Shown here piece by piece: positions 1,536 through 12,925 of a stretch of 32,408 bases of DNA. The notes beneath the pieces were generated by a model that was not told the DNA's origin, did not search any database, and was given only the letters and a program-made list of their open reading frames with translations. The stretch lies in the IMG/VR virus record IMGVR_UViG_3300047368_000064, positions 1 to 32,408 of that record. One strand, 5' to 3'. The position numbers were made by a program, and so were the translations under genes. Within the stretch, counting starts at the first letter, position 1. The number at the start of each line of letters is the position of its first letter. This DNA is from a virus.

Positions 1536-2004
1536 TTATAAGAAAAAGAACGGTACAACAAGAGTAGGCGATGCATTACGTTGGTTAGTTAAACAAGGTA
1601 AAGAAGTAGCACCTGATATATTAAATGTTGCTGGTAGTATTACTGGTATTGAACAATTAAAAGACTTAGCTAGTAAAATAGAAGGTAATACACAATTAAG
1701 TGAAACAGATAAGCAATTATTACTAGAAGAGCTAAGGTACGATATGATTGAAATGCAAGAGTCAACTAAACGCTGGGAAGCAGATATGAACTCTGATAGT
1801 TGGTTAAGTAAAAATATAAGACCTCTAAGCTTAGCTTTTTTAACGCTTACATTATTTATATACATAATACTAGATAGTTCCTTAGAAGTGTTTAAAATAT
1901 CACCTGAGTGGATAGATTTACTATCCTCTTTATTACTTTTAGTTTATGGAGGATATTTTGGAGCTAGAAGTGCTGAAAAAATTACAAAAAATTTTAAGAA
2001 GTAA
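1528..2004 (+). CDS. Holin, 3TM/GTA-type
   Basis: 158 aa. A soluble, partly amphipathic N-terminal half (to about residue 90) is followed by the sequence DSWLSKNIRPLSL and two strong hydrophobic segments (about 100-116, AFLTLTLFIYIILD, and 130-145, DLLSSLLLLVYGGYFG). It ends in GARSAEKITK and a Lys-rich tail. The order 'W..K..RP' then TM hairpin then 'GAR..EK' is typical of 3TM phage holins of the GTA_holin family. The gene overlaps the endolysin by 8 nt, so peptidase and holin are co-translated. It would form the membrane lesion that releases the M15 enzyme. It closes the late gene block; the AT-only region follows. Confidence 0.8.
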   Translation: MGDYKKKNGTTRVGDALRWLVKQGKEVAPDILNVAGSITGIEQLKDLASKIEGNTQLSETDKQLLLEELRYDMIEMQESTKRWEADMNSDSWLSKNIRPLSLAFLTLTLFIYIILDSSLEVFKISPEWIDLLSSLLLLVYGGYFGARSAEKITKNFKK

Positions 2005-2080
2005 TAATATTTAATTATATTTAATTATTATATATATTACGTATATAATAATATATATATAATATTATAATATACACACG
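2005..2080. other. AT-only spacer with 11-bp perfect inverted repeat
   Basis: Almost no G or C over about 70 bases between the lysis genes and the early genes. Bases 2024-2034 and 2042-2052 form a perfect 11-bp inverted repeat with a 7-base loop (TATTACG), followed by more alternating AT (2050-2072). Possible roles are a DNA-unwinding/origin element, a regulatory operator or a weak late terminator. No iterons or T-tract confirm any of these. Confidence 0.4.
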
Positions 2081-2081
2081 C

Positions 2082-2504
2082 GTGGCAAAAAGATCTAAAA
2101 GAAAAAAGCTTATAGATAAATTAGATAATGTTTTTAGTATATACATAAGAAAAAGATATGCTAAAAACGATATTGCTGAATGTTTTACTTGTGGTAAAAA
2201 AGATCATTGGAAAAAACTACAGTGTGGTCATTTTCAAAGTCGTAAAAACTACGCTACAAGATTTGGTACTTTAGATGATGATGATAAAATTACAGAATTA
2301 AATTGCCAAGTTCAATGTGCTGGATGTAATGTATTTAGATATGGTGAACAATATTTATTTGCAAAGCATTTAGACGAAAAATACCATAAAGGACTAGCTG
2401 ATGAATTATTTTTAAGATCAAAAAAGGTTGTTAAGTTTGATAATGTAGATTTAGAAATGTTAATAAATAAATATAAAGACTTAACAGATAAACTTGATAA
2501 ATAG
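2082..2504 (+). CDS. ninG: NinG-family recombination protein
   Basis: Matches the lambda NinG (Rap) family, a DNA structure-specific endonuclease acting on recombination intermediates. Visible features are a basic N-terminus (AKRSKRKKLIDKLD), a first metal-binding cluster CFTCG...QCGHF (Cys34, Cys37, Cys48, His50), the family motif GHFQSRKNYATRF, and a second Cys group NCQVQCAGCN (Cys75, Cys79, Cys82). The start is GTG at 2082; no ATG lies in frame upstream within the AT-only spacer. 140 aa. It stands just ahead of the annealing protein/SSB genes, so it is probably part of an early recombination module. Confidence 0.9.
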   Translation: MAKRSKRKKLIDKLDNVFSIYIRKRYAKNDIAECFTCGKKDHWKKLQCGHFQSRKNYATRFGTLDDDDKITELNCQVQCAGCNVFRYGEQYLFAKHLDEKYHKGLADELFLRSKKVVKFDNVDLEMLINKYKDLTDKLDK

Positions 2505-2506
2505 AT

Positions 2507-2514
2507 TATATTTG
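2507..2514 (+). promoter_or_regulatory. Putative -7 box (TATATTTG)
   Basis: A perfect match to the Bacteroidota -7 consensus TAnnTTTG, immediately after the ninG stop codon. The 15 bases TATATTTGTAGTATA starting here recur exactly at 2627, 120 bp downstream. No TTG lies at the expected -33 distance, so the promoter is uncertain. A transcript from here would run only about 75-80 nt to the terminator at 2565-2594. Confidence 0.35.
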
Positions 2515-2564
2515 TAGTATACGAATTGTCTTTGTTTTATGTTTAGATTGTAACCAATCAAATT

Positions 2565-2594
2565 AAGCCACTCTAAAAAGGGTGGTTTTTTTTT
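2565..2594 (+). terminator. Rho-independent terminator
   Basis: Stem CCACTC (2568-2573) pairs with GGGTGG (2580-2585) with one T-G pair, around the loop TAAAAA. The stem can be extended by AAG/TTT, and nine T residues follow. It separates ninG (and the possible short transcript) from the next promoter. Confidence 0.8.
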
Positions 2595-2626
2595 AGTTAA
2601 AAAGCTGTTTATATAATTTTTTTTTG

Positions 2627-2634
2627 TATATTTG
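2627..2634 (+). promoter_or_regulatory. Early promoter -7 box (TATATTTG)
   Basis: TATATTTG perfectly matches TAnnTTTG and is preceded by a T run (TTTTTTTTTG). A GTTTAT element lies about 20 nt upstream, as in the boxes at 3767 and 5540. The box ends 25 nt before the ATG at 2660, in a suitable position to drive the 2660-3709 genes. Confidence 0.6.
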
Positions 2635-2659
2635 TAGTATAAACATAAAATTTAAAGCA

Positions 2660-2875
2660 ATGGATTATAAAATGATTAGCCTATATGATAGGTTAAAACC
2701 CCACTACAAAAATGTTCTTACAAAGAAGAATGTTACAGAACCAAAATTAGTTAATTTAGTAGTAGAATCTCTTGAACAAGAAAGTTATGTAGCAGACTTA
2801 AAATATTCAAGTATTTTAAATATGCAATTTTTATTTGGTAATATAAATCCTTTTATTTATTTTAAAGATATATAA
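2660..2875 (+). CDS. Hypothetical early protein (71 aa)
   Basis: Family not recognised. Predicted small helical protein (MDYKMISLYDRLKPHY) with a central LVNLVVESLEQESYVADLKY segment. I start it at 2660: the in-frame ATG at 2624 lies inside the promoter -7 region and could not be in the message, while 2660 has an A-rich leader of the usual length. First gene after an early promoter, followed one base later by the coiled-coil ORF at 2877. Confidence 0.6.
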   Translation: MDYKMISLYDRLKPHYKNVLTKKNVTEPKLVNLVVESLEQESYVADLKYSSILNMQFLFGNINPFIYFKDI

Positions 2876-2876
2876 T

Positions 2877-3014
2877 ATGACACATATAGAAGACGTAAAA
2901 AGAGCAGCAAGCAATGATACTATAGATTATTTAAATGCAAGAATAGAAGCATTAGAAAACAGAGTAGAATACTTAGAATCAATTTTAGAAGTAGAATATT
3001 TAAACAGACAATAA
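2877..3014 (+). CDS. Small coiled-coil protein (45 aa)
   Basis: Too short for usual gene callers, but it fits the operon: it starts one base after the previous stop and its TAA overlaps the next ATG (TAATG). The sequence has leucine heptads (LNARIEALENRVEYLESIL) predicting a short parallel coiled coil, and is strongly acidic. Function unknown; possibly a dimerising partner or regulator of a neighbouring replication protein. Confidence 0.55.
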   Translation: MTHIEDVKRAASNDTIDYLNARIEALENRVEYLESILEVEYLNRQ

Positions 3015-3397
3015 TGAACAGAGAAAAATTAAAAGAACTTTACAATAAGTATAATTTAGCTAAAGAAGATTTTTTTAAGCATCAACATTATACTATTATA
3101 ACACGTCAAGGTATTGATAAAATACAAGCAATGGAACAAATTACAATTGATTATGAAGTAATTAAATGTGAACCAAACTTTGCTGTATTTAAAGCATACG
3201 CAGAAAAAGACGGTAAAAAAATTCAAACATTCGGAAGTGCAAAAAAAGGAGATAGTTTTAAAGACGGAAACACTAATAGTTGGTATGTTGCTGAAATGGC
3301 AGAAAAAAGATCAATGAGTAGAGCTGTTTTAAAATTAACTGGTTTTTATGAACTCGGAGTATTTGGAGAAGACGAATCAGAATCATTTAAAAAATAA
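3014..3397 (+). CDS. Putative ssDNA-annealing/recombination protein
   Basis: 127 aa. The C-terminal stretch WYVAEMAEKRSMSRAVLKL (about residues 97-115) resembles a motif seen in phage single-strand annealing-type proteins with an 'AEKRA..RA' helix. The middle (YEVIKCEPNFAVFKAYAEKDGKKIQTFGSAKKG) looks like a beta-sheet of the kind in Rad52/Erf-like folds. It is encoded directly before the SSB gene, the usual partner of an annealing protein, and near ninG. Fold-level similarity is inferred from motif and context, not demonstrated. It is short for a full annealase, so it may instead be an SSB-interacting accessory protein. Confidence 0.5.
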   Translation: MNREKLKELYNKYNLAKEDFFKHQHYTIITRQGIDKIQAMEQITIDYEVIKCEPNFAVFKAYAEKDGKKIQTFGSAKKGDSFKDGNTNSWYVAEMAEKRSMSRAVLKLTGFYELGVFGEDESESFKK

Positions 3398-3403
3398 TTA
3401 ATT

Positions 3404-3709
3404 ATGAGTGCAATTATCACATACTCTATAAGAGTAGACAAATTACCAAAAGAAAAGTTTATAGCTGGAAAAGACGGAGCTGTATACGTAAACCTCACTA
3501 TGTCAGTTAATGATGAAACAAGATACGGTAATAATACAAGTATCTATGTAAGTCAAACACAAGAAGAACGAGAAGCTAAAAAACAAAAAACTTATATTGG
3601 AAACGGTAAAGTTGTTTGGAACAATGGTAGTATTGTAAATGCAGAAAGAGAAAATCAAGAACAAGTGGTTGAGTCTAACACTGCTGAAACCGCTGATTTA
3701 CCTTTCTAA
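3404..3709 (+). CDS. ssb: Single-stranded DNA-binding protein
   Basis: 101 aa. The N-terminal part (about residues 1-75) has OB-fold-like beta strands: VYVNLTMSVNDETRYGNNTSIYVSQTQEERE, then KTYIGNGKVVWNNGS. It ends in a disordered acidic tail finishing ADLPF, a match to the SSB C-terminal tip (DDDIPF) that docks replication and repair proteins. Short for a bacterial SSB but normal for small phages. It follows the putative annealing protein by 6 nt in the same operon and is followed by a terminator, so the recombination unit 2660-3709 appears self-contained. Confidence 0.75.
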   Translation: MSAIITYSIRVDKLPKEKFIAGKDGAVYVNLTMSVNDETRYGNNTSIYVSQTQEEREAKKQKTYIGNGKVVWNNGSIVNAERENQEQVVESNTAETADLPF

Positions 3710-3736
3710 ATAAAAATAAAATAAAATATTTTTTTT

Positions 3737-3765
3737 AGAGAGGTTTATCACTTCTCTTTTTTTTT
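3737..3765 (+). terminator. Rho-independent terminator overlapping the next promoter
   Basis: AGAGAGG (3737-3743) pairs with CTTCTCT (3751-3757), a 7-bp stem with one G-T pair, with loop TTTATCA and eight T residues (3758-3765). The loop contains the GTTTAT element and the T-tract runs directly into the -7 box at 3767, so terminator and promoter share the same DNA. Confidence 0.75.
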
Positions 3766-3766
3766 G

Positions 3767-3774
3767 TATATTAA
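3767..3774 (+). promoter_or_regulatory. Early promoter -7 box (TATATTAA)
   Basis: TTTTGTATATTA matches the early box shared with 5540 and 8766. It ends 22 nt before the ATG at 3797 and probably drives the ATPase and sigma-like genes. Confidence 0.5.
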
Positions 3775-3796
3775 CAAAAACAAGACAAAATATAAT

Positions 3797-4660
3797 ATGA
3801 CAGAGAAAAAAACCACAGATAATATGCTAATGGAATTAATAAAGGAAGAGTGTTATATTGACACTAATGAATTTATGGAATATCCTCCTATAGCATTAAG
3901 TCTTGGTGAAACAACTATTCAAACCAAAAGTGGAGAAAAAACATTCCCAATTCCAATAGGCACATACGGTAACTTTTCATTTGTACAAGCACCGCCAAAA
4001 ACTAAAAAGACTTTTTTTATATCATTATTAGCTTCAGTTTATTTAAGTGGTGGTAATAATTTTGGTGGACAAATGTTAGGACATAGAGATAATAAATGTT
4101 TAATTCATTTTGATACAGAGCAAGGTCATTGGCATAGCCAAAGAGTATTCAAAAGAGTAAAAGACATGGCTAATATGCATGACTTAGGTTGTTATCATAC
4201 TTATGCCTTAAGAACTATAAACTATAAACAGCGTATGCAATTTATAGAATATTGTTTACAAGAAAATAAAGATAAAAATGGATTAATTATTATTGATGGT
4301 ATTGCTGATTTGGTTTCTGATGTAAATAATTTAGAAGAATCTAATTTATGTGTACAAAAAATAATGGAATGGAGTGCTAAATATAAATGCCATATAGTAA
4401 CTGTTATACATAGCAATTACGGTAGTGATAAACCAACAGGACATCTAGGAAGTTTTCTAATGAAAAAAACAGAGACACAAATTCAATTAGAAGCAAACAC
4501 AGTTAATAAAGAATGGATAACTGTAAGTTGTAAAAATTCAAGAGGATATGCTTTTGAAACATTTAGTTTTAGTATTAATGAATTTGGTCTACCATTTGTA
4601 GTTGGTGAGATATATGATCCACTTAAGTACTTTGTAACATCAAATAAAAAATTCACATAA
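3797..4660 (+). CDS. RepA-like AAA (AAA_25) ATPase, putative replicative helicase
   Basis: 287 aa, RecA/DnaB-fold ATPase resembling the RepA hexameric helicase group. The P-loop is degenerate: QAPPKTKKT at about residues 64-72 takes the place of GxxGxGKT, retaining Lys-Thr at the end. The acid residue follows strand 2 (HFDTEQ, Glu108), Walker B is GLIIIDGIADL (Asp167), and a sensor-like strand reads IVTVIHSN. The start at 3797 (MTEKKTTDN) is preferred over 3764, which falls inside the -7 region. Since no polymerase or primase is visible, this is the best candidate for loading or driving the host replisome on phage DNA. The sigma-like gene follows 4 nt later. Confidence 0.8.
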   Translation: MTEKKTTDNMLMELIKEECYIDTNEFMEYPPIALSLGETTIQTKSGEKTFPIPIGTYGNFSFVQAPPKTKKTFFISLLASVYLSGGNNFGGQMLGHRDNKCLIHFDTEQGHWHSQRVFKRVKDMANMHDLGCYHTYALRTINYKQRMQFIEYCLQENKDKNGLIIIDGIADLVSDVNNLEESNLCVQKIMEWSAKYKCHIVTVIHSNYGSDKPTGHLGSFLMKKTETQIQLEANTVNKEWITVSCKNSRGYAFETFSFSINEFGLPFVVGEIYDPLKYFVTSNKKFT

Positions 4661-4664
4661 TGAA

Positions 4665-5156
4665 ATGAAATCTTTAGTAGAGTTAGCTTATTTAAAGCAT
4701 AAAGATTGGATAAACATAGTAAAGTCATTTGGTTGTAATCCTAGTTTAGCAGAAGATGTTGTACAGGAAATGTATATACAAATACACTTAGACATACATA
4801 AAGGATTAGATATATCTTATAAAGATGATATAAACCACTATTATTGTTATAAAGTTTTAAGAGGTATTTATTTAAATATACATAAAAAAGAAGCTAAGAA
4901 AATTAAGATATATTTAGACCAAATAAAAGAAATAAAACAAATTGATGATCAAGGTATAGATGAGGTTGAATACGCTAAAAATAAAAACAAAGTAGATCAA
5001 ATACTTAATGACCTTTATTGGTATGATAGAAAAGTTTTTGAATTAATAGCAAGTGGAAAAAGCGTTGCTAGTTTAAGTAGAGAAACTGGCATCAGCTATA
5101 TATCACTTTATAATACTTATAGAACAACTAAAAAATTTATAAAAGATCAATTATGA
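4665..5156 (+). CDS. Phage RNA polymerase sigma-like factor (ECF type)
   Basis: 163 aa with the two-domain plan of ECF sigma factors. A region-2-like segment lies at about residues 14-40 (DWINIVKSFGCNPSLAEDVV, then QEMY; compare 'AEDVVQE.F' in ECF sigmas). A linker rich in charged residues follows (about 70-108). The region-4-like helix-turn-helix lies at about 111-160 (ILNDLYWYDRKVFELIASG, SVASLSRETGISYISLYNT). It probably binds host core RNA polymerase, or acts as a sigma-like regulator, to direct it to phage promoters; the five identical late boxes are the obvious candidates. It is encoded mid-early, as expected for an early-to-late switch. The small size and weak region 2.4 leave open a plain HTH regulator. 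Confidence 0.7.
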   Translation: MKSLVELAYLKHKDWINIVKSFGCNPSLAEDVVQEMYIQIHLDIHKGLDISYKDDINHYYCYKVLRGIYLNIHKKEAKKIKIYLDQIKEIKQIDDQGIDEVEYAKNKNKVDQILNDLYWYDRKVFELIASGKSVASLSRETGISYISLYNTYRTTKKFIKDQL

Positions 5157-5305
5157 AATTAGGAGATTTATTTTACTATTTTACTTATTACACAGGTATA
5201 CATTGGTTAGTTAAAAAAATTAGTAAATTATTAAATAAAGATTGCGGATGTGATAAACGCCGTGAAGAGTGGAACGATATAGATTTAGATTTATGGAACA
5301 AATAG
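5153..5305 (+). CDS. Small hypothetical protein with Cys-x-Cys motif (50 aa)
   Basis: Start overlaps the sigma-like stop (ATGA). An N-terminal aromatic/hydrophobic stretch (LGDLFYYFTYYTGIHWLV, residues 3-20) is followed by a basic segment and DCGCDKRREEWN. That CxC-KRR-E-W motif recurs in small proteins of Bacteroidota phages as far as I recall, with no known role. The N-terminus could be membrane-associated. Overlaps the next ORF by 13 nt. Confidence 0.6.
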   Translation: MKLGDLFYYFTYYTGIHWLVKKISKLLNKDCGCDKRREEWNDIDLDLWNK

Positions 5306-5490
5306 ATAAAGATAACTGGAAAAAGTTTAAAGCTGAGGTAAAAGATAAGCTTAGTCAAGAGCAATATAAGTTATTATGTACTTTACACGCTAAATACTAT
5401 AAACATAAATATAGTGAACCGTGTTCTTGTAATCCAAAACGTTTAATACAATGGATAGCAGAGATAGATAAGATATATGATAAATGTTAA
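5293..5490 (+). CDS. Small hypothetical protein (65 aa)
   Basis: A basic helical N-terminus (DKDNWKKFKAEVKDKLSQEQ) is followed by LLCTLHAKYYKHKYSEPCSC and NPKRLIQWIAEIDKIYDKC. Cys-x-Cys plus 'NPKR..QWI..ID' is shared with small phage proteins near DNA-packaging or replication genes, function unknown. I start it at the ATG at 5293; the upstream ATG at 5269 would deepen the overlap with the previous gene. Confidence 0.65.
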   Translation: MEQIDKDNWKKFKAEVKDKLSQEQYKLLCTLHAKYYKHKYSEPCSCNPKRLIQWIAEIDKIYDKC

Positions 5491-5539
5491 AGTTTTGTTA
5501 AAATAGTTAAAAAATTGTTTATAATGTTAAGTTGTTTTG

Positions 5540-5547
5540 TATATTAG
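5540..5547 (+). promoter_or_regulatory. Early promoter -7 box (TATATTAG)
   Basis: TTTTGTATATTAG with TTGTTTAT upstream (TTG at 5515-5517, 22 nt before the box) fits a Bacteroidota -33/-7 promoter. The box ends 18 nt before the ATG at 5566. Likely promoter for the small-protein block and, through overlaps, the DNA modification genes. Confidence 0.6.
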
Positions 5548-5565
5548 CAATATAAAACAATAGCA

Positions 5566-5703
5566 ATGAAAACAAGATTAAGAACAAACAAAGACAGAAC
5601 ATCATTTGAACTTTCAGTAATTAATAAATTAGGATGTGAAATATATTACTTCAATAACCTAGAAGAAGCTATTAACTATCAAAACAAAATAACAAAACAA
5701 TGA
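5566..5703 (+). CDS. Small hypothetical protein (45 aa)
   Basis: First ORF after the promoter at 5540, overlapping the next ORF by 4 nt (ATGA). MKTRLRTNKDRTSFELSVIN is followed by a short region ending in NNLEEAINYQNKI; it looks like a small beta-alpha domain. No family recognised. Confidence 0.55.
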   Translation: MKTRLRTNKDRTSFELSVINKLGCEIYYFNNLEEAINYQNKITKQ

Positions 5704-5855
5704 GAACACAACTAACAGACTTACGTAAAGAACTTAGAGACATAGAATCTACATTAAGTGCTAATATGCTTGTAAGAACATTACCAAAAGAAACAGAAAC
5801 TAAATTACTTAATAGAGCTCAATATATAAGAGACGTAATATTTAATATACAATAA
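5700..5855 (+). CDS. Small hypothetical protein (51 aa)
   Basis: ATGA overlap with the previous gene. Predicted two-helix protein (LTDLRKELRDIESTLSANM, then ETETKLLNRAQYIRDVIFNI). Function unknown; member of the early small-protein block. Confidence 0.55.
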   Translation: MRTQLTDLRKELRDIESTLSANMLVRTLPKETETKLLNRAQYIRDVIFNIQ

Positions 5856-5856
5856 A

Positions 5857-6045
5857 ATGAAAAAGACAAAGACAGGATTACATATCCAAACAAGAAAAAA
5901 CAGAATAGAAGTTTATACAGAAAAAGAACTTAAAGCTAAAGAACTTAAAAGAGAAAGACAAAGAGAAGTTGTTTTACAATTATGTTTATTTTTTGCATTC
6001 TTTATGTGTGCAGTATTAGGTTACTTAGTTGGAAGTCAAAGATGA
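5857..6045 (+). CDS. Small single-pass membrane protein (62 aa)
   Basis: A strongly basic N-terminal half (KKTKTGLHIQTRKNR, KELKAKELKRERQRE) is followed by a C-terminal hydrophobic helix (about residues 39-58, VVLQLCLFFAFFMCAVLGYL) and a short GSQR end. The arrangement predicts a tail-anchored inner membrane protein with its basic domain in the cytoplasm. Possible host-takeover or superinfection function; not recognisable further. Overlaps the next gene by ATGA. Confidence 0.65.
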   Translation: MKKTKTGLHIQTRKNRIEVYTEKELKAKELKRERQREVVLQLCLFFAFFMCAVLGYLVGSQR

Positions 6046-6317
6046 ATTTATTACAAAAACAATCTTATCAAGTTTGGTATTCCTTTTTAATAGATAAGTT
6101 ATTAGAATGGAAAAAACAAAAGCCAAACAATAAAGACATAACTAATTGCGTTAAAAGTATTACAGAGATTGGTATATTTACAAATAGATTACAAGTTGAG
6201 AATGATATATTAAATAAGAAAGTAAGTTTAATAATGTCTCAAAAGAATGAAATTATAAGTAAATTACAAGAACAATTAGAAGAATTAGAACATAAACTTA
6301 AACAATACGAATTATGA
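6042..6317 (+). CDS. Hypothetical coiled-coil protein (91 aa)
   Basis: N-terminal globular part (LLQKQSYQVWYSFLIDKLLE) and C-terminal coiled coil from about residue 45 (RLQVENDILNKKVSL, then IISKLQEQLEELEHKLKQYE). I start it at 6042, where ATG overlaps the preceding stop as ATGA; the ATG at 5982 lies inside the membrane-protein gene. Function unknown. Confidence 0.65.
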   Translation: MNLLQKQSYQVWYSFLIDKLLEWKKQKPNNKDITNCVKSITEIGIFTNRLQVENDILNKKVSLIMSQKNEIISKLQEQLEELEHKLKQYEL

Positions 6318-6514
6318 TTATTAATTATTGTGATGTAGCTTTATTTGTTGAATACAGTTACGAAGAAGCAGAACCACAAACTTGGGATTACCCAGGCTCA
6401 CCACATAGTGCATACATAGAAAGTGTAACTGTTAATGGTATTGACATCTATGATTTACTTTCTGAAGAACAATTACATGACATTGAATGTTTAATATTAG
6501 AAAGTTATGAATAA
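6314..6514 (+). CDS. Hypothetical protein (66 aa)
   Basis: Acidic small protein: VEYSYEEAEPQTWDYPGSPH, SAYIESVTVNGIDIYDLLSE. The pattern 'PG.P..a.IE.V.vNG.DI.dLL' is widespread in small conserved phage proteins of unknown role. ATGA overlap with the previous gene and an 8-nt overlap with the next. Confidence 0.65.
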   Translation: MIINYCDVALFVEYSYEEAEPQTWDYPGSPHSAYIESVTVNGIDIYDLLSEEQLHDIECLILESYE

Positions 6515-6635
6515 AAAGAAATATACACAACAACAAAGAATACTTAGACTAGAAAACATAGTATCACAAATGTATATAAAATTAGAAGCATTAAAGATTA
6601 TTATAGATAAACAGCAAACAGACGAAGAAGAATGA
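6507..6635 (+). CDS. Small helical protein (42 aa)
   Basis: A basic N-terminus (MNKKKYTQQQRILRLE) leads into a single amphipathic helix (NIVSQMYIKLEALKIIIDKQ) and an acidic tail (TDEEE). Overlaps neighbours by 8 and 4 nt. No family recognised. Confidence 0.5.
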   Translation: MNKKKYTQQQRILRLENIVSQMYIKLEALKIIIDKQQTDEEE

Positions 6636-6892
6636 ATATATTAGAAGAAGCAAATAAGATTATAAATAAACGTTCACAAGAAAAAGAACGTATGTATGGT
6701 CCATTTTCAGAAGGAATGGAAAGAGCAGCTATGATAGCATCAGGAGCTACTGGTAAAACTATTACACCACAAGATATGTATATGTGTCTTGTAGCTTTAA
6801 AGTTATCTAGACAATCTTATAATCACAAAGAAGACAATTTATTAGACGCCGTTGCTTATTTAGCAGCATTAAATAATTATAATAAAAAATGA
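6632..6892 (+). CDS. DUF6378-like protein (86 aa)
   Basis: ILEEANKIINKRSQEKERMY, then GPFSEGMERAAMIASGATGK, then TITPQDMYMCLVALKLSRQS and NHKEDNLLDAVAYLAALNNY. This fits the DUF6378 layout (YG-x-F, IA, 'ALKLSR', 'K-DN-x-DAxAY'), a helical family with weak resemblance to MazG-type all-alpha NTP pyrophosphatases. It overlaps the glucosyltransferase gene by ATGA, so it is translationally coupled to the modification cassette. A nucleotide-handling role is possible but not shown. Confidence 0.7.
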   Translation: MNILEEANKIINKRSQEKERMYGPFSEGMERAAMIASGATGKTITPQDMYMCLVALKLSRQSYNHKEDNLLDAVAYLAALNNYNKK

Positions 6893-8094
6893 AGATAGGT
6901 ATATTATTAGGAAGAGGTATTGAAGGTTGTGGCGTTACTAGGTTTGCAACTGAATTTCAAAACTATTTATTATCACAAGGGTATAACTGTAAATCTTATG
7001 CTACGTTAGATAAAAAATGGGGTAGAAAAAATACTCAGCAAACTAAAATAATAGAGTTTAAAAACGATAAAATAAATAATATAAAGCAACAATTAAATAA
7101 TTGTGATATTGTTTTTTATCAATCATTACCAAGTAAATCAAATTCTAATTCATATAAAGAAAAGTTTTTTAATGAACTTGTAGTTGGTGTTGATAAACCT
7201 ATTAAAATTATTTTTCAAAATGATCATAAAATACATTCTTTAAATAGGAATTACAATTTATGGGAAACAGTTAAAAAAATGGATTGTGCTTTTACTTTTG
7301 GTAAAGGAACTGTGTTTTATAAAAAAATAAAAGAAATTGGTATTAATACACCTGTTAAATTTTTTAATAATGGTCATGATTTTAGTAAGTTAGATTTTTT
7401 AATTAAAAAAGAACAAAGAAAAAAAATGTCTTATTTAGGTAGATTCGCTACATTTAAAGAGCCTGATAGAATGATTTATTTACAACCATTATTATCTAAA
7501 CATGAAATAATATGTGAAGCAAGAGGTATAGAAAAATCTATTGGAGCTAAAACAAAATTCTTTGTTACTAACTCTAAGGATTTAAAATCACCTGAACATA
7601 GTAATATTAAATATAGAAGTAAAAGTATTATAGATAGCCAAGACTTAGATCATTTACATGTTTATGGTCCTTATGATAGAATACCAACTTTAGAATTATT
7701 ATCTAACAATATGTTCGGTGCTAATTTTTTTAATTTAAAAAAGGAAGAGTATAGTAATATTATAGAATATTCTACTTTAGAAATGATAAACATTGGCATG
7801 ATTGTTGTTGTAGATAAACAATGGGCACAAAATAATTATCATATTCAAGGAGATAGTTTTTATGACTTAGATTGTTTTATATATAATGAAAGAGATAAAT
7901 ATCAAGAAACCGTTGAACAAATAGTTGAATTATCAAATAACAAACAATTAAGAAATAAAAAAAGGAACTTAGCTTATAATGTTGCTAAATCACATTGTGA
8001 TGTAAATATAGCTTTTAAAGATTTAATAGAAAAGTCTAAAACAGTTTCCAAGAAAAAACAAGTATACGAACCAAAACAAACTTTATTATTTTAA
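6889..8094 (+). CDS. DNA alpha-glucosyltransferase (T4 AGT / GT72-like)
   Basis: Predicted to move glucose from UDP-glucose to 5-hydroxymethylcytosine in DNA. 401 aa, against about 400 for T4 AGT. The N-terminus MKIGILLGRGIEGCGVTRF matches the T4 AGT N-terminus (MRI-I-ARGLEGCGVTKF) nearly residue for residue. Further matches by eye: NDHKIHSLNRN (Asp112-His113) with T4 'HDHSVLSLRRN'; WETVKKMD with 'EETVRRAD'; YLGRFATFK with 'WIGRTTTWK'; and IEYSTLEM-IGMIVVV (Glu293, Glu298) with 'LEYTHLEL-GTIPVF', keeping the five-residue Glu spacing of a GT-B donor site. The gene lies 2 nt before the dCMP hydroxymethylase gene, as expected for one pathway. A generic GT-B glycosyltransferase acting elsewhere is the alternative, but the specific N-terminal motif argues against it. 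Confidence 0.88.
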   Translation: MKIGILLGRGIEGCGVTRFATEFQNYLLSQGYNCKSYATLDKKWGRKNTQQTKIIEFKNDKINNIKQQLNNCDIVFYQSLPSKSNSNSYKEKFFNELVVGVDKPIKIIFQNDHKIHSLNRNYNLWETVKKMDCAFTFGKGTVFYKKIKEIGINTPVKFFNNGHDFSKLDFLIKKEQRKKMSYLGRFATFKEPDRMIYLQPLLSKHEIICEARGIEKSIGAKTKFFVTNSKDLKSPEHSNIKYRSKSIIDSQDLDHLHVYGPYDRIPTLELLSNNMFGANFFNLKKEEYSNIIEYSTLEMINIGMIVVVDKQWAQNNYHIQGDSFYDLDCFIYNERDKYQETVEQIVELSNNKQLRNKKRNLAYNVAKSHCDVNIAFKDLIEKSKTVSKKKQVYEPKQTLLF

Positions 8095-8096
8095 AT

Positions 8097-8738
8097 ATGT
8101 GGCAATTTCAAACCGTAACAGAAGCTTTTGAATATTACTATAAAAAGTTAGATTCACAACCTAGTGCTAATGGTACTAAAGCTTTATACAATCAAATATT
8201 TACTATATTAGATACTAATCAAAAAATAGTAACTACACCAAAACGTGGATTCAAATTAGACTATGCAGAAAAAGAATGGGAATGGTATTTATCTAAAAAC
8301 CGTGATGCTACTGAAATAGCTAAAGTAGCTAAGATTTGGTATAACCACATGGATGAACGTGGATATGTTAATTCAAACTATGGTTGGCAATGGAGTAGAA
8401 ACAATCAATTGGAATATGCTATAAAAGAATTAAAACGTGATAAGTATTCTAGACGTGCAGTAATAAGTATATATGATGGTAAAGAACATACTGGTTATTC
8501 TAAAGATACGCCTTGTACTTTATCAATACAATTTTATTATACGCCTGATTCAGATAAGTTACACATGACAGTATTAATGAGAAGCAATGATTTATGGTTT
8601 GGATTTTGTAATGATGCTTATTGTTTCTTAAAATTACATGAATTAGTTTCTAATAGTTTAAATAGTGAGCAAGGTTTTTATACACATTATGCTCATAACT
8701 TACATATATATGAACGTCACTATAATAAAAACATATAA
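8097..8738 (+). CDS. dCMP hydroxymethylase (T4 gp42-like, thymidylate synthase fold)
   Basis: Converts dCMP to 5-hydroxymethyl-dCMP with methylene-tetrahydrofolate. 213 aa. Thymidylate-synthase-fold motifs: NSNYGW (92-97), YSRR (phosphate Arg, 117-120), catalytic Cys140 in TPCTLSIQF, RSND (162-165) and LHIYERH (202-208). Two positions separate it from thymidylate synthase. The base-reading Asn is Asp173 in FGFCNDAY, as in T4 gp42 (FGFRNDYA). The His after the catalytic Cys is Thr141, as in gp42 (CTN). MRSND-FGF-ND and INSNYGW/VNSNYGW agree closely with gp42. It is shorter than thymidylate synthase (about 264 aa) and gp42 (246 aa), mainly at the C-terminus. It follows the glucosyltransferase by 2 nt, supporting a hydroxymethylcytosine pathway. 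Confidence 0.88.
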   Translation: MWQFQTVTEAFEYYYKKLDSQPSANGTKALYNQIFTILDTNQKIVTTPKRGFKLDYAEKEWEWYLSKNRDATEIAKVAKIWYNHMDERGYVNSNYGWQWSRNNQLEYAIKELKRDKYSRRAVISIYDGKEHTGYSKDTPCTLSIQFYYTPDSDKLHMTVLMRSNDLWFGFCNDAYCFLKLHELVSNSLNSEQGFYTHYAHNLHIYERHYNKNI

Positions 8739-8765
8739 ATATTTTTTTTATTAACAAGTTATTTG

Positions 8766-8773
8766 TATATTAG
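8766..8773 (+). promoter_or_regulatory. Early promoter -7 box (TATATTAG)
   Basis: TTTGTATATTAGC is the same as at 5540. It lies in the only gap in this block (8739-8797) and ends 24 nt before the ATG at 8798. No clear -33 TTG. Probably drives 8798-11399. Confidence 0.55.
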
Positions 8774-8797
8774 CTATATAATAATAAAACAAATACA

Positions 8798-9040
8798 ATG
8801 AATTTATATTACGGAGTTAAATACGAACATTTAGGTTACCACATTGATTTTCATGTTGGCAACAAATATTATGGATCTATTAAAATAGAAAAACCAGATA
8901 GAGAAGTTATTGGTTATTGTGGCAAACAAGAACATATTGCTGAAGAAACCATTATATTTAAAAATAAAAAAATTACTAAAGGTATGAAATACCACACTTA
9001 CTTATATCCTTTGTGTGGTAGATCTAACATAAAAATTTAA
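8798..9040 (+). CDS. Hypothetical protein (80 aa)
   Basis: Beta-rich small protein (YYGVKYEHLGYHIDFHVGNK, YYGSIKIEKPDREVIGYCGK) ending in YHTYLYPLCGRSNIKI, with Cys and His residues that could bind a metal (YCGKQEH, PLCG). No family recognised. First gene after the promoter at 8766; its TAA overlaps the next ATG (TAATG). Confidence 0.6.
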   Translation: MNLYYGVKYEHLGYHIDFHVGNKYYGSIKIEKPDREVIGYCGKQEHIAEETIIFKNKKITKGMKYHTYLYPLCGRSNIKI

Positions 9041-9777
9041 TGTATTACATATACCATATTGAAGGTGTAAAAGTAGGTTGTACTGTAAATCCTGCAAAAA
9101 GAATCGTAGTCCAACAAGGTTATTCAGACTTTGAAATATTAGCTAAAACAAAATGTATTGATGAAGCTTCTAAATTAGAATTTGAATGGCAAAATAAGTT
9201 GGGCTACAAAAATGATATAAGAACGTATAAACAAACAATTAATAATTTTATGATACATATTACTAAAACAACCGTTACATTTAAAAAGACATTTAATAAA
9301 AGCTTTGATAATTATACTTGGCCAACTAATATAGAATTAGATAGTGAATATAATATAGAGTTAAATGATGAAGTAAAAGAATATATTTTATCAAATAACT
9401 TTAAGTCAGCACATAACAATGAAAGATATATATATGTTCAGTCATTAAAAAACTTTTGGGATGTAATTAATAAACCAAAAGTAAATTTAGAAATATTTGA
9501 TAATATTAGAATGTGGGCAAAAGATAGAGGATTATATGATAAAGGTAATGCACAAACACAATATGTTAAATTAATAGAAGAAGCAGGTGAATTAGCACAA
9601 GCAATATTAAAACAAGATACAAAAGAAATAGAAGATGCTATTGGAGATATGGTTGTCGTATTAACTAACTTAGCACATTTAAATGCTATGAGTATAGAAG
9701 AATGCATACACTCTGCTTATAATGAAATTAAAAACCGTAAAGGTAAAATGCAAAATGGAACGTTTGTAAAAGAATAA
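9040..9777 (+). CDS. GIY-YIG-like / MazG-like fusion protein
   Basis: 245 aa, two domains. Residues 1-55 resemble a GIY-YIG endonuclease core: YYIYHIEGVKVGCTVNPAKR, with YIY and KVG in place of GIY and YIG, Arg21, and Glu47 in the later helix (EASKLEFEWQ). Residues 150-245 are a MazG-type NTP pyrophosphohydrolase: KLIEEAGELAQAIL with the EExxE motif (Glu180, Glu181, Glu184), then EIEDAIGDMVVVLTNLA (Asp199, Asp203). The linker (60-145) is unassigned. MazG enzymes turn dNTP into dNMP and PPi, so next to a dCMP hydroxymethylase this could act as the dCTPase that T4 supplies with gp56. The nuclease-like half could act on unmodified DNA. Both substrate assignments are inference. Confidence 0.75.
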   Translation: MYYIYHIEGVKVGCTVNPAKRIVVQQGYSDFEILAKTKCIDEASKLEFEWQNKLGYKNDIRTYKQTINNFMIHITKTTVTFKKTFNKSFDNYTWPTNIELDSEYNIELNDEVKEYILSNNFKSAHNNERYIYVQSLKNFWDVINKPKVNLEIFDNIRMWAKDRGLYDKGNAQTQYVKLIEEAGELAQAILKQDTKEIEDAIGDMVVVLTNLAHLNAMSIEECIHSAYNEIKNRKGKMQNGTFVKE

Positions 9778-10493
9778 TGATATTATTAATTGATGCAGAT
9801 AGTTTAGTTTATGCTTCTTGTTTAAGGGCTAAAAGTGAAGGCAGTAGTGATAAGTTTTATAGAGACATAGAAGATAGCATAGCTAAGTTTGATCAACAAT
9901 ATATGAAAATAGTTAATGACTTAGAAGAATTATACGATATAGAAAAAATATATACTTTTAATGGATCTAAAGGAAACTTTAGAAAGATACTAACTAAAAC
10001 ATATAAAGCTAATAGAAACGACACTGAGATACCACCTTTGTTATCTAAAATGCATGAGTTTGTTAGAAAAGAATATAATGGTTTATTTGCTTATGGTATT
10101 GAAACAGACGATTTAGTTGCTAAATATTGGTATGATATATCTAAAGAAGTAGGTAGAAATAAAGTAATGATAGTTTCTATTGATAAAGATTATAAACAAT
10201 TTCCTTGTTTAATGTATAATTATCATTTTAAACATAGAAAAGTTTATGATATAACAGAACAAGAAGCTATATATAATTTTTACGAACAAATGATTATTGG
10301 TGATGGTGCTGATAATGTTAACTATTTTAAAGGTAAAGGTAAAGCTTATGCTAAAAAACTTTATAAGTCATGTAATAGTAAGTTCTGTTATGTAAAGAAT
10401 TTATATAAGTTATTTATACAAGAATATAAAGGTAAAGCAAAACAAAAATATATAGAGTGCTATAACTTATTAAAACTAAGAACTAAATTATGA
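9777..10493 (+). CDS. FEN-type 5'-3' exonuclease / RNase H-like
   Basis: 238 aa. Matches the 5' nuclease (PIN-like) family of Pol I N-domains and T4 RNase H: LLIDADSLVYA (Asp6, Asp8), the arch/ssDNA threading segment KTYKANRNDTE, acidic cluster ETDDLVAKYW, SIDKDYKQFP, and a helix-hairpin-like GDGADNVNYFKGKGKAYAKK. It probably removes RNA primers or flaps during phage replication, or degrades host DNA. Start ATG overlaps the previous stop (TAATG). No polymerase domain is attached. Confidence 0.85.
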   Translation: MILLIDADSLVYASCLRAKSEGSSDKFYRDIEDSIAKFDQQYMKIVNDLEELYDIEKIYTFNGSKGNFRKILTKTYKANRNDTEIPPLLSKMHEFVRKEYNGLFAYGIETDDLVAKYWYDISKEVGRNKVMIVSIDKDYKQFPCLMYNYHFKHRKVYDITEQEAIYNFYEQMIIGDGADNVNYFKGKGKAYAKKLYKSCNSKFCYVKNLYKLFIQEYKGKAKQKYIECYNLLKLRTKL

Positions 10494-10726
10494 GTTTACA
10501 TTATAAAACAAAAGAAGGAATAGAAGTAATAGATGTTGTTAAAGCTTATGAATTAAACTTTAATAGAGGTAATATATTAAAATATGTTTGTAGAGCAGGT
10601 AAAAAAGGTTTTGAATATATGAAAAGCAACGAGATACAAGACTTAGAAAAAGCATTAGACTATTTACAACACGAAATAAAATACCTTAGAAAAGAACAAG
10701 AAGAAATAATAAAGAAAAATAAATAG
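10490..10726 (+). CDS. DUF3310 (SaV-like) protein
   Basis: LHYKTKEGIEVIDVVKAYEL, then NFNRGNILKYVCRAGKKG, then IQDLEKALDYLQHEIKYLR is the DUF3310 signature (HY, EVIDV, LNF-GN-KY-RAGKK, DL-KA-YL). This domain also occurs in T7 gp1.7, which has nucleotide kinase activity, and such proteins are often labelled nucleotide kinase; the isolated 78-aa domain lacks a P-loop and its activity is not established. ATGA overlap with the FEN nuclease gene. In a hydroxymethylcytosine phage, a hydroxymethyl-dCMP kinase is needed and no other viral candidate is visible. Confidence 0.85.
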   Translation: MSLHYKTKEGIEVIDVVKAYELNFNRGNILKYVCRAGKKGFEYMKSNEIQDLEKALDYLQHEIKYLRKEQEEIIKKNK

Positions 10727-10728
10727 TT

Positions 10729-10869
10729 ATGTATATAAATATTGAATTAAAAGAAACAGATAGAAAAGAATTTTATAAATTTACAATTAATGGCGTAAAA
10801 CTTGGAACATGGGAACAAGGCCAATTAAGATATTTAATAGAAAAGATAGATAGTAAAATAACAAGATAA
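10729..10869 (+). CDS. Small hypothetical protein (46 aa)
   Basis: Starts 2 nt after the DUF3310 stop and its TAA overlaps the next ATG (TAATG). MYINIELKETDRKEFYKFTI followed by NGVKLGTWEQGQLRYLIEKI predicts a compact beta-beta-alpha protein. No family recognised. Confidence 0.55.
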   Translation: MYINIELKETDRKEFYKFTINGVKLGTWEQGQLRYLIEKIDSKITR

Positions 10870-11399
10870 TGACATTAGAACAATTAAAAGACGAGTTACA
10901 TAATTACTACCAATTTGATATAGCAACTAAAAGTAGAAAACGTGAAATAGTATATGCTAAAAAAGTATTTTGTAAGATAGGTTACGAACTAGGTTATACT
11001 TATGACAAAGTAGCAGCTGTATTAAACTCAAATCATGACTTAGCAATATATCATGCAAGTACTATAAATTCTATAGAAGATAGAGATAAAATGATATTTG
11101 ATAAAATAATAGATGACTATAGTTTATTTATTAAAAAATTCAATGCTCAAAAAAAACGTATAATAATTAAAGGCATACAAGATAACTTAGAAAAACAAAA
11201 AGCAGAAGAATACAAAGACCTTATAACAGAAATAAACAAAACAATAATAAACTGGGATAGAAATAGTATAAGAGAATTTATAGATACCAGACTAAAAGTA
11301 TACGATAAAGCTCTAACTAATAAGATTAAACAAAAAGAAATAGCTAAAGTTCCAGGCGCAAGACTAATTAGAAAAGTAAAGAACACACTGTTGAGTTAA
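10869..11399 (+). CDS. DnaA domain IV-like DNA-binding protein
   Basis: 176 aa. Residues about 20-75 (TKSRKREIVYAKKVFCKIGY, ELGYTYDKVAAVLNSNHDLA, IYHASTI) follow the DnaA C-terminal DNA-binding domain: 'SRKREIVYAR' helix, 'Y....VA..LN..H....HA' helix-turn-helix with the conserved H-x(n)-HA. The rest (80-176) is Lys-rich and helical with no AAA+ motor. It could mark an origin by binding DnaA-box-like sites, regulate transcription, or assist packaging. It lies just upstream of the terminase genes, across a late-type promoter at 11417. Confidence 0.65.
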   Translation: MTLEQLKDELHNYYQFDIATKSRKREIVYAKKVFCKIGYELGYTYDKVAAVLNSNHDLAIYHASTINSIEDRDKMIFDKIIDDYSLFIKKFNAQKKRIIIKGIQDNLEKQKAEEYKDLITEINKTIINWDRNSIREFIDTRLKVYDKALTNKIKQKEIAKVPGARLIRKVKNTLLS

Positions 11400-11416
11400 A
11401 ATTATCTACAAATGTT

Positions 11417-11424
11417 TATATATT
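11417..11424 (+). promoter_or_regulatory. Late promoter box abutting start codon (TATATATT)
   Basis: GTTTATATATTAGTATGAAC: the box TATATATT ends exactly 3 nt before the ATG at 11428. Four further late genes (12961, 20053, 21262, 23512) have the same layout and spacing. A start of transcription at or next to the A of ATG would make a leaderless mRNA. Confidence 0.5.
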
Positions 11425-11427
11425 AGT

Positions 11428-11784
11428 ATGAACAAAACTGAACAACATAAAAAAGCTATAATAGCAGCTTTAGAAAAATCATTAGGTGTAGTAACAGAAG
11501 CATGTAGAAAAGTAGGAGTAGGTAGAACAACATTCTATGGTTGGTTAAAAGATGACAAAGAATTTGCAGCACAAGTAAAAGACGTACAAGATATAGCGTT
11601 AGACTTTGTTGAATCAAAGCTATTTGAGAACATTAGAGACGGCAAGACAAGTGAGATGATATTCTACTTAAAAACAAAGGGAAAGTCACGTGGTTACATC
11701 GAGAGACAAGAAATAACAGGTGCAGACGGATTACCTAACAACTTCAAAGTAGAAATAATTGACAACACAAAAAGTACAGACTAA
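11428..11784 (+). CDS. terS: Terminase small subunit
   Basis: 118 aa DNA-recognition subunit of the packaging motor. N-terminal helix-turn-helix (about residues 8-45: HKKAIIAALEKSLGVVTEAC, RKVGVGRTTFYGWLKDDKEF), central helical oligomerisation part (ALDFVESKLFENIRDGKTSE, MIFYLKTKGKSRGY) and a flexible tail. The motif 'T..AC.K.GV.R.TFY.W...D..F' followed by 'E..L......G......FYLKTKG..RGY' is characteristic of phage small terminases. It overlaps the large subunit by 26 nt. Confidence 0.88.
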   Translation: MNKTEQHKKAIIAALEKSLGVVTEACRKVGVGRTTFYGWLKDDKEFAAQVKDVQDIALDFVESKLFENIRDGKTSEMIFYLKTKGKSRGYIERQEITGADGLPNNFKVEIIDNTKSTD

Positions 11785-12925
11785 CATTGTTTATAGGCAT
11801 TTACTTAATAGCCAAGACAAGATTGTAGTACAGCAAGGAGGTACACGTAGTGGTAAGACATACAACGTACTTTTGTTTATCATATTTGAATACTGTTTAA
11901 AATACCAAAGTAAAACTATTACTATATGTAGAAAGACATTTCCAAGTGTTAGAGCTACAGTAATGCGCGACTTTATAACTATATTAAAACAATATGGATT
12001 ATATAGAGAAGAACACCATAATAAATCTAATAGTGAATATAAGCTTAATAATAACTTAGTTGAGTTTATAAGTGTAGATCAACCACAAAAAATTAGAGGT
12101 CGTAAAAGAGATATATTGTTTATCAACGAAGCTAATGAATTAGACTTTGAAGATTGGCAGCAATTAGTATTTAGAACACAAGAAAAAATAATATTAGACT
12201 ATAACCCTTCAGATGAATACCATTGGATATACGATAAAGTATTAGTTAGAGATGATGTAGAGTTTTATAAGACTACTTATTTAGATAATCCTTTTTTAGA
12301 TAAGTCTATTGTAAAAGAAATAGAATTACTTAGAGAAACAGATGAGCAATATTGGCAGATATATGGATTGGGTGAAAAAGGTATTAGTAAAGCAACTATA
12401 TTTAATTATGTTGAGGTACCACATGTACCACACGATGCTGAGTTAGTTAGTTATGGAGCAGATGCAGGATATACAAATGATCCTAGTACATTAGTTAGTG
12501 TTTATAAGAAAGATCATAACTTATACATAGAAGAACACTTATACCGTACTATGATGACAACTACAGATTTAAGTAACCACTTCAAAGAAGTAATAGAAAA
12601 CAAAAGAAGTCCTATATACTTTGATGCTGCAGAACCTAGATTAATTGATGAGCTACGAAGAATGGGACATAACATACAACCAAGCTTAAAAGGTAGAGAT
12701 AGTATAAATGCAGGTATTGACTTATTAAAAAGATATAAGATACATATAACAAGCAATAGTGATAATGCTATTAGAGAGTTTAGAAACTATAAATGGTTAG
12801 AAGACAAGACAGGTAAATTAACTAATAAGCCAGTAGATAAAAACAATCATATAATAGATGCAGTTCGTTACGCTACATATTCTATAATGAGTAGACCAAA
12901 CTTTGGTAGATATGCAGTACATTAA
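11759..12925 (+). CDS. terL: Terminase large subunit
   Basis: 388 aa packaging ATPase/nuclease. Walker A is QGGTRSGKT (26-34), Walker B plus catalytic Glu is ILFINEA (119-125), and the coupling region follows (DYNPS, about 147-151). The RNase H-like nuclease part has GADAGYTND (Asp235), YFDAAEP (Asp289, Glu292) and NNHIIDAVRYA (His364, Asp367). These are all the acidic positions expected of a Terminase_3/6-type protein, and the length is near the family norm. The start appears to be TTG at 11759; there is no ATG or GTG in frame before the conserved QGGTRSGKT, and the coding region overlaps terS by 26 nt. The type of DNA end (headful or cos) cannot be read from this alone. Confidence 0.93.
   Translation: MTTQKVQTNIVYRHLLNSQDKIVVQQGGTRSGKTYNVLLFIIFEYCLKYQSKTITICRKTFPSVRATVMRDFITILKQYGLYREEHHNKSNSEYKLNNNLVEFISVDQPQKIRGRKRDILFINEANELDFEDWQQLVFRTQEKIILDYNPSDEYHWIYDKVLVRDDVEFYKTTYLDNPFLDKSIVKEIELLRETDEQYWQIYGLGEKGISKATIFNYVEVPHVPHDAELVSYGADAGYTNDPSTLVSVYKKDHNLYIEEHLYRTMMTTTDLSNHFKEVIENKRSPIYFDAAEPRLIDELRRMGHNIQPSLKGRDSINAGIDLLKRYKIHITSNSDNAIREFRNYKWLEDKTGKLTNKPVDKNNHIIDAVRYATYSIMSRPNFGRYAVH

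Follow-up and report, generated by a model that had tools for sequence, protein, structure and literature searches.

Identification of the gene

The open reading frame (ORF) at positions 8097 to 8738 of the IMG/VR virus record IMGVR_UViG_3300047368_000064 is best explained, with good confidence by comparison with known enzymes, as the gene of a folate-dependent dCMP 5-hydroxymethylase supplying an exchangeable tailoring enzyme encoded just upstream, in a marine phage that probably infects Flavobacteriia. The whole stretch of 32,408 nucleotides is referred to here as the window. To judge from its residues, the gene product very probably makes 5-hydroxymethyl-dCMP, letting the virus disguise its own cytosines. 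The following features, all on the plus strand, were considered.

6632..6892, plus strand: DUF6378 gene, conserved, bounding the exchange slot on its left
6889..8094, plus strand: homologue of T4 DNA alpha-glucosyltransferase (AGT), the exchangeable gene, 401 aa (PF11440, phrog_2888, PDB 1xv5)
8097..8738, plus strand: predicted dCMP hydroxymethylase of thymidylate-synthase fold, 213 aa, ATG start, no C-terminal tail past the HxYxRH core
8505..8507, plus strand: codon of Asp137 (T4 Asp145; Leu in ThyA, Glu in the RB69 dCMP hydroxylase)
8514..8519, plus strand: codons of catalytic Cys140 and of Thr141 (T4 Cys148 and the next Thr)
8589..8591, plus strand: codon of Asp165 (T4 Asp171; Asn in the flavin-dependent RB69 enzyme)
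8613..8615, plus strand: codon of Asp173 (T4 Asp179, E. coli ThyA Asn177)
8798..9040, plus strand: conserved small ORF separating the hydroxymethylase gene from the MazG gene, without family match
9040..9777, plus strand: MazG-like nucleotide pyrophosphohydrolase domain; the N-terminus is possibly GIY-YIG-like (score under the cut-off)

The 213-aa protein reads P-C-T at residues 139-141 and N-D at residues 172-173. Pfam assigned only Thymidylat_synt (PF00303; 88 bits against a cut-off of 24.3), and the PHROGs label was 'thymidylate synthase', the name that the preliminary description had expected from automatic annotation. Homologues in Bacteroides fragilis phages (51%) are, however, deposited as dCMP hydroxymethyltransferase, and the NCBIfam thymidylate synthase models scored far under their own cut-offs. 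Membership of the superfamily is indicated by the PF00303 score above the gathering threshold, by Cys140 and by the paired phosphate-binding residues Arg119 and Arg120. The best sequence match in the PDB was T4 gp42 (E 5e-17). Scanning with SPO1 gp29 as query found no viral relatives, and no host-linked relative turned up in a genome scan.

Active-site residues

An alignment made with MAFFT placed Cys140 in a column that holds Cys in T4 gp42, E. coli ThyA and SPO1 gp29. Thr141 fell into the His column (Thr in T4 gp42, Asn in SPO1 gp29, His in ThyA) and Asp173 into the Asn column (Asp, Asn and Asn, respectively). The preliminary description had claimed that both changes are common to this protein and T4 gp42, and had named an Asp173 lying outside the Asn column as one of two observations that would speak against its reading; the alignment, repeated with more references, bore out the claim, and on this half the reading stood. 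The protein agrees with T4 gp42 at E60, I80, W81, S93, Y95, R119, R120, D137, C140 and T141, and also at D165, F168, N172, D173, H203, Y205 and R207. Among the IMG/VR relatives, Cys140, Thr141 and Asp173 were invariant wherever covered (77, 77 and 76 of 77 loci), as was Asp137 (77 loci, 76-77 per column), while each of these four residues was encoded by two to four synonymous codons. Pairwise dN/dS between the hydroxymethylase gene and its relatives was about 0.04-0.2. In a further 80 of 80 T4-gp42-like IMG/VR proteins, six columns held S, Y, D, C, T and D.

Family models label the protein a thymidylate synthase, but an ordinary thymidylate synthase, or else a dUMP hydroxymethylase, is most improbable. 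At columns 137/141/173 thymidylate synthases have L/H/N and the dUMP-type hydroxymethylases (SPO1, Bordetella CN1, a Yuavirus, a Kuttervirus) D/N/N. Column 173 is Asn in each of the five dUMP-type enzymes and in the two thymidylate synthases compared, where this protein has Asp; all five dUMP-type enzymes carry one additional residue directly before this Asn, an insertion missing here, and the protein lacks the C-terminal tail of thymidylate synthase. Columns 137, 141 and 173 speak against both readings.

The combination D/T/D at these columns was common to the window protein, T4 gp42 and the homologues in BF503P2 and in Enterococcus, Lactobacillus, Agathobaculum and Chryseobacterium phages. 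Since Maribacter phage Molly_4 has D/T/N, Thr141 by itself is no diagnostic mark; since the RB69/HY126 enzyme has E/T/D, Thr141 and Asp173 together are insufficient to establish hydroxymethylation. The pair is thus, as far as these alignments go, a signal of cytosine reading and not of hydroxymethylation. MetaGPA had already published the change of Asn177 to Asp, together with position 147, as markers of modified-cytosine phages (PMC8670742). Of the preliminary description, the assignment of both columns held, and so did Asp173 as the residue separating this protein from every tested thymidylate synthase and dUMP hydroxymethylase; the dCMP hydroxymethylase reading stood as the best explanation, but the two residues alone do not prove it, since MilA and the RB69/HY126 enzyme share them.

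The call of a hydroxymethylase needs Asp137, Ser93, Asp165 and Tyr205 in addition, residues on which the preliminary description was silent, and the neighbouring DNA glucosyltransferases. In T4 gp42 the hydroxyl comes from a water activated by Asp145, another task of placing a water falls to Ser94 and Tyr96, and a pterin water network is formed by Asp171, Tyr218 and Arg220, with the folate activated by Glu60 (PMC6400193). The corresponding residues were all found in the window protein, both for the water (D137, S93 and Y95) and for the folate (E60, D165, Y205 and R207). A dCMP methylase giving 5-methyl-dCMP is a very unlikely alternative. Mutants of thymidylate synthase with Asn229/Asn177 changed to Asp methylate dCMP, according to work cited in PMC8670742, but Asp137 and the missing C-terminal tail fit hydroxymethylation, the site of T4 gp42 being controlled by no such tail (PMC6400193), and 5-methylcytosine would offer no hydroxyl to the adjacent glycosyltransferase.

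Two side observations concern other enzymes of this fold. In Molly_4 (L185:348-1427 and upstream) the Thr141/Asn173 enzyme stands beside a gene annotated as beta glucosyl transferase, and glucosylated hydroxymethyluracil is a candidate modification there. A second gene in BF503P2 (L080:5109-5915, 268 aa) is divergent and has D/T/D, but in it Leu is aligned to the catalytic Glu60 and Leu also occupies the conserved Gly column 169; it may have altered chemistry or be a degenerate copy.

Clade and predicted structure

In the tree, one clade (support 100/98) united the window protein with its relatives, among them the protein of the Bacteroides phage; the T4 group (100/99) and the dUMP group (97/99) each formed a clade apart. 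The tree did not fix the deep order of these clades or, with it, the deep placement of the window protein. The best call is a dCMP hydroxymethylase in a clade of its own, distinct from that of T4. It has the gp42 residues compared above and would work like gp42, with which it may or may not have a common origin. The separate clade and the overall identity to T4 gp42 of about 27% count against the preferred explanation. The window protein is also 33 residues shorter than gp42, with which it has in common the fold (PDB 1b49, 6a9b), the catalytic Cys, the cytosine-reading and water-activating Asp residues, the folate and phosphate residues, and a gene beside that of a DNA glucosyltransferase. BF503P2 protein WAX07047 ('deoxycytidylate 5-hydroxymethyltransferase') belongs to the same clade, with about 50% identity and all key residues. 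Unlike the window, BF503P2 is a phage of a sewage-derived B. fragilis system, and the 16.6 kb of it covered by the analysis yielded no homologue of the slot enzymes.

The AlphaFold2 model (mean pLDDT 82.7) was weak near residues 94-99 and 130-136, two active-site loops, a further point against the preferred explanation. A fold search with this model matched MilA, T4 gp42 and the HY126 enzyme. MilA, a CMP hydroxymethylase, outranked T4 gp42, which likewise counts against the preferred explanation, and has the same D-x-x-C-T and Asp residues as the window protein. MilA works in antibiotic synthesis, whereas the phage gene adjoins DNA glycosyltransferases, and in sequence T4 gp42 is the better match; a ribonucleotide hydroxymethylase like MilA can hardly be expected here.

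The HY126 match brought to light, through the fold search only, a flavin-dependent dCMP C5-hydroxylase, RB69 ORF048c/HY126 AfhB, as a further alternative; the sugar would then sit on 5-hydroxycytosine. This enzyme, deposited as riboflavin-dependent monooxygenase and dCMP hydroxylase (PDB 9iqc, 9iqu) and described as 5-hydroxy-dCMP synthase (PMC13390438), has the thymidylate-synthase fold, the Cys-Thr, the cytosine-reading Asp and a sugar-transferase partner, and Mosigvirus DNA contains arabinosyl-5-hydroxycytosine made via 5-hydroxy-dCMP synthase (PMC13390438). The window protein, however, sides with T4 against RB69 at S93 (Thr in RB69), D137 (Glu), D165 (Asn) and Y205 (Phe), and again at W81 and F168 (both Val). 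Moreover, the slot in 34 related loci holds a homologue of T4 beta-glucosyltransferase (BGT), and the T4 enzyme acts on 5-hydroxymethylcytosine (hmC). Such a hydroxylase is therefore unlikely.

Gene neighbourhood

The start of the AGT homologue overlaps the stop of the DUF6378 gene, and its own stop lies 2 bp ahead of the hydroxymethylase ATG. It matched PF11440 over the cut-off, phrog_2888 (4e-66, across residues 1-378) and PDB 1xv5 (9.6e-24, in two blocks). By its sequence it is a full-length homologue of T4 AGT, with sugar and linkage predicted. AGT-based models also picked up RB69 ORF003c, a candidate arabinosyltransferase (PMC6024577). Enterococcus phage vipetofem and Lactobacillus phage ATCCB likewise have a beta-glucosyltransferase homologue next to their D-type relative.

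Downstream of the hydroxymethylase gene follow the small ORF, the MazG-like gene and a 5'-3' exonuclease gene. The product of the MazG-like gene is a candidate for a dCTP-removing enzyme. Ahead of the MazG-like domain this protein has an N-terminal region whose GIY-YIG-like match (MUG113) stayed under the threshold, and in several relatives the MazG part stands alone. Unlike T4 with its gp1 kinase, gp56 dCTPase and phage DNA polymerase, the window had no recognised phage dNMP kinase or T4-type dCTPase in its scanned ORFs and no recognised phage polymerase, absences that also count against the preferred explanation but apply to this 32.4 kb contig, which may be incomplete; DNA polymerase A was not found in any of the 12 related contigs searched. 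The terminase was closest to Flavobacterium phage terminases (38%), and the only DNA similarity to isolates covered a few hundred bases of Tenacibaculum phages; from these two matches a host among the Flavobacteriia appears likely.

Exchange of the upstream gene

The contig L002 is 98.3% identical to the window across most of positions 1900-6893 and 98.7% identical across 8096-12169, and the two hydroxymethylase proteins are 100% identical. Between these flanks the window has the AGT homologue and L002 a homologue of T4 BGT. The window form of the junctions is present in the window and in IMGVR 3300030395_000690, the L002 form in the pair 3300017781_000658 and 3300017782_001474; with two contigs for each junction, the assembly chimerism considered as a source of the difference is argued against. 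As read from the sequences, the exchange between the window and L002 is recent and gene-precise. Exchanged along with BGT was a short ORF (L002:5864-6000) that separates it from the hydroxymethylase gene in L002 and is missing in the window. Clean replacement was found in seven further pairs with flanks about 82-99% identical (L037/L038, L031/L050, L011/L021, L012/L017, L015/L016, L046/L053 and L041/L043), the left flank of L012/L017 being just 90 bp long because L017 begins there. Parsimony on the hydroxymethylase tree needed 21 changes of slot type; many branches are weakly supported, and the pairs are therefore the firmer evidence.

The contents of the slot, defined as the region between the DUF6378 gene and the hydroxymethylase gene, were recorded in 78 records (the window and 77 relatives). 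An AGT homologue was present in 12 and a T4 BGT homologue in 34, three of the latter with a cytidylyltransferase. Family B occupied 17 slots, once with an FkbM-type methyltransferase and once with a UDP-galactopyranose mutase, and family C three. Eight records held a PLP-fold enzyme set plus one or two genes without assignment, and in four the slot was truncated or without assignment. AGT and BGT occurred together in none of the sequence stretches examined around the slot.

The assignment of the commonest alternative gene as a BGT homologue is firm (PDB 1bgt, E 1.2e-9; hhalign 99.3%, E 3.4e-20). For family B, no solved structure matched by sequence, but the AlphaFold2 model of this family (pLDDT 88) matched T4 BGT and other GT-B enzymes with a TM of about 0.45; by structure, only this family gave a T4 BGT-like GT-B fold. 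Comparison of the profiles of slot families B, C, K, PP and PLP with AGT, BGT and each other gave no confident link, the top score being 30%, for BGT with C.

Several arrangements in individual slots were observed. In L046 (3861-5865) the family B transferase is followed by UDP-galactopyranose mutase, and the family B homologue in Erwinia phage FBB1 (L090) likewise stands beside a UDP-galactopyranose mutase; the pairing in both suggests galactofuranose transfer, which would give galactofuranosyl-hmC. A three-gene set lies 5' of the hydroxymethylase homologue in L062 (3285-5995; also L063-L069) and comprises a phrog_13881-like protein with an NFFGG motif, a 303-aa protein without assignment and a PLP-fold enzyme (PF00291). 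It might serve a non-sugar cytosine hypermodification. The phrog_13881-like protein has homologues in Tenacibaculum phage PTm1 and in T4-like phages of Aeromonas, one of which, phiAS4, has it next to a family B homologue. A cytidylyltransferase-like gene just 5' of the BGT homologue (L020:4442-5065, with PF01467, and L033:4643-5056) has an N-terminal extension fused to it in L020, which L033 encodes as a small ORF of its own. The donor may be CDP-linked.

It is on balance probable that these uncultured marine, probably flavobacterial, phages have a hot spot beside a conserved dCMP hydroxymethylase gene, at which complete, non-homologous tailoring enzymes are swapped and the cytosine chemistry comes to differ. 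The enzymes at this spot would be an alpha-glucosyltransferase, a beta-glucosyltransferase, a GT-B-like enzyme with or without UDP-galactopyranose mutase or methyltransferase, a fourth family and the three-gene PLP set, these last two without assignment. A search of open-licence papers found no description of such an exchange slot in these phages. T4 carries both its glucosyltransferases, the homologues of the window slot gene and of the commonest alternative, at separate loci, whereas here they are alternatives at one locus. T2, T4, T6 and RB69 are, like these phages, relatives with different cytosine sugars, but here the difference can be one gene between flanks of 98-99% identity and was seen repeatedly.

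Proposed mechanism and biological meaning

By analogy with T4 gp42, Cys140 would attack C6 of dCMP, and Asp173 would read and protonate the cytosine; in gp42, Asp179 serves cytosine recognition and N3 protonation, and the role of Cys148 comes from the same work (PMC6400193). Methylene-tetrahydrofolate would donate the carbon, and water activated by Asp137 would complete the hydroxymethyl group. As in T4, the hydroxymethyl-dCMP would then be phosphorylated and used in DNA synthesis; host enzymes or genes beyond the contig are assumed for these steps, the record having shown no recognisable kinase or polymerase of the phage. After replication the DNA glycosyltransferase encoded in the slot would decorate hmC, the AGT homologue doing so in the window and the BGT homologue or other, mostly unassigned, enzymes in the relatives. 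The hydroxymethylase would thus be the fixed core and the tailoring enzyme an exchangeable allele, and swapping the single slot gene would switch the mark with the supply of hmC unchanged. Selection on the allele may plausibly come from host type IV restriction enzymes and DNA glycosylases recognising one sugar or linkage, a pressure suggested by the defence literature: Brig1 attacks alpha-glucosyl-hmC only, and GmrSD enzymes attack several forms (PMC13216743).

The enzyme appears to be an ordinary, well-supported new member of the dCMP hydroxymethylases, and what sets the locus apart is the exchangeable slot. dCMP hydroxymethylation, already known, would be extended to a compact phage group (records of about 30-40 kb). 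The slot matters more than the enzyme, as it provides natural phage pairs differing in one DNA-decorating gene. The slot families without assignment offer concrete candidates for novel modifications of cytosine, and the pairs would permit a direct test of whether host defences drive changes of DNA sugars.
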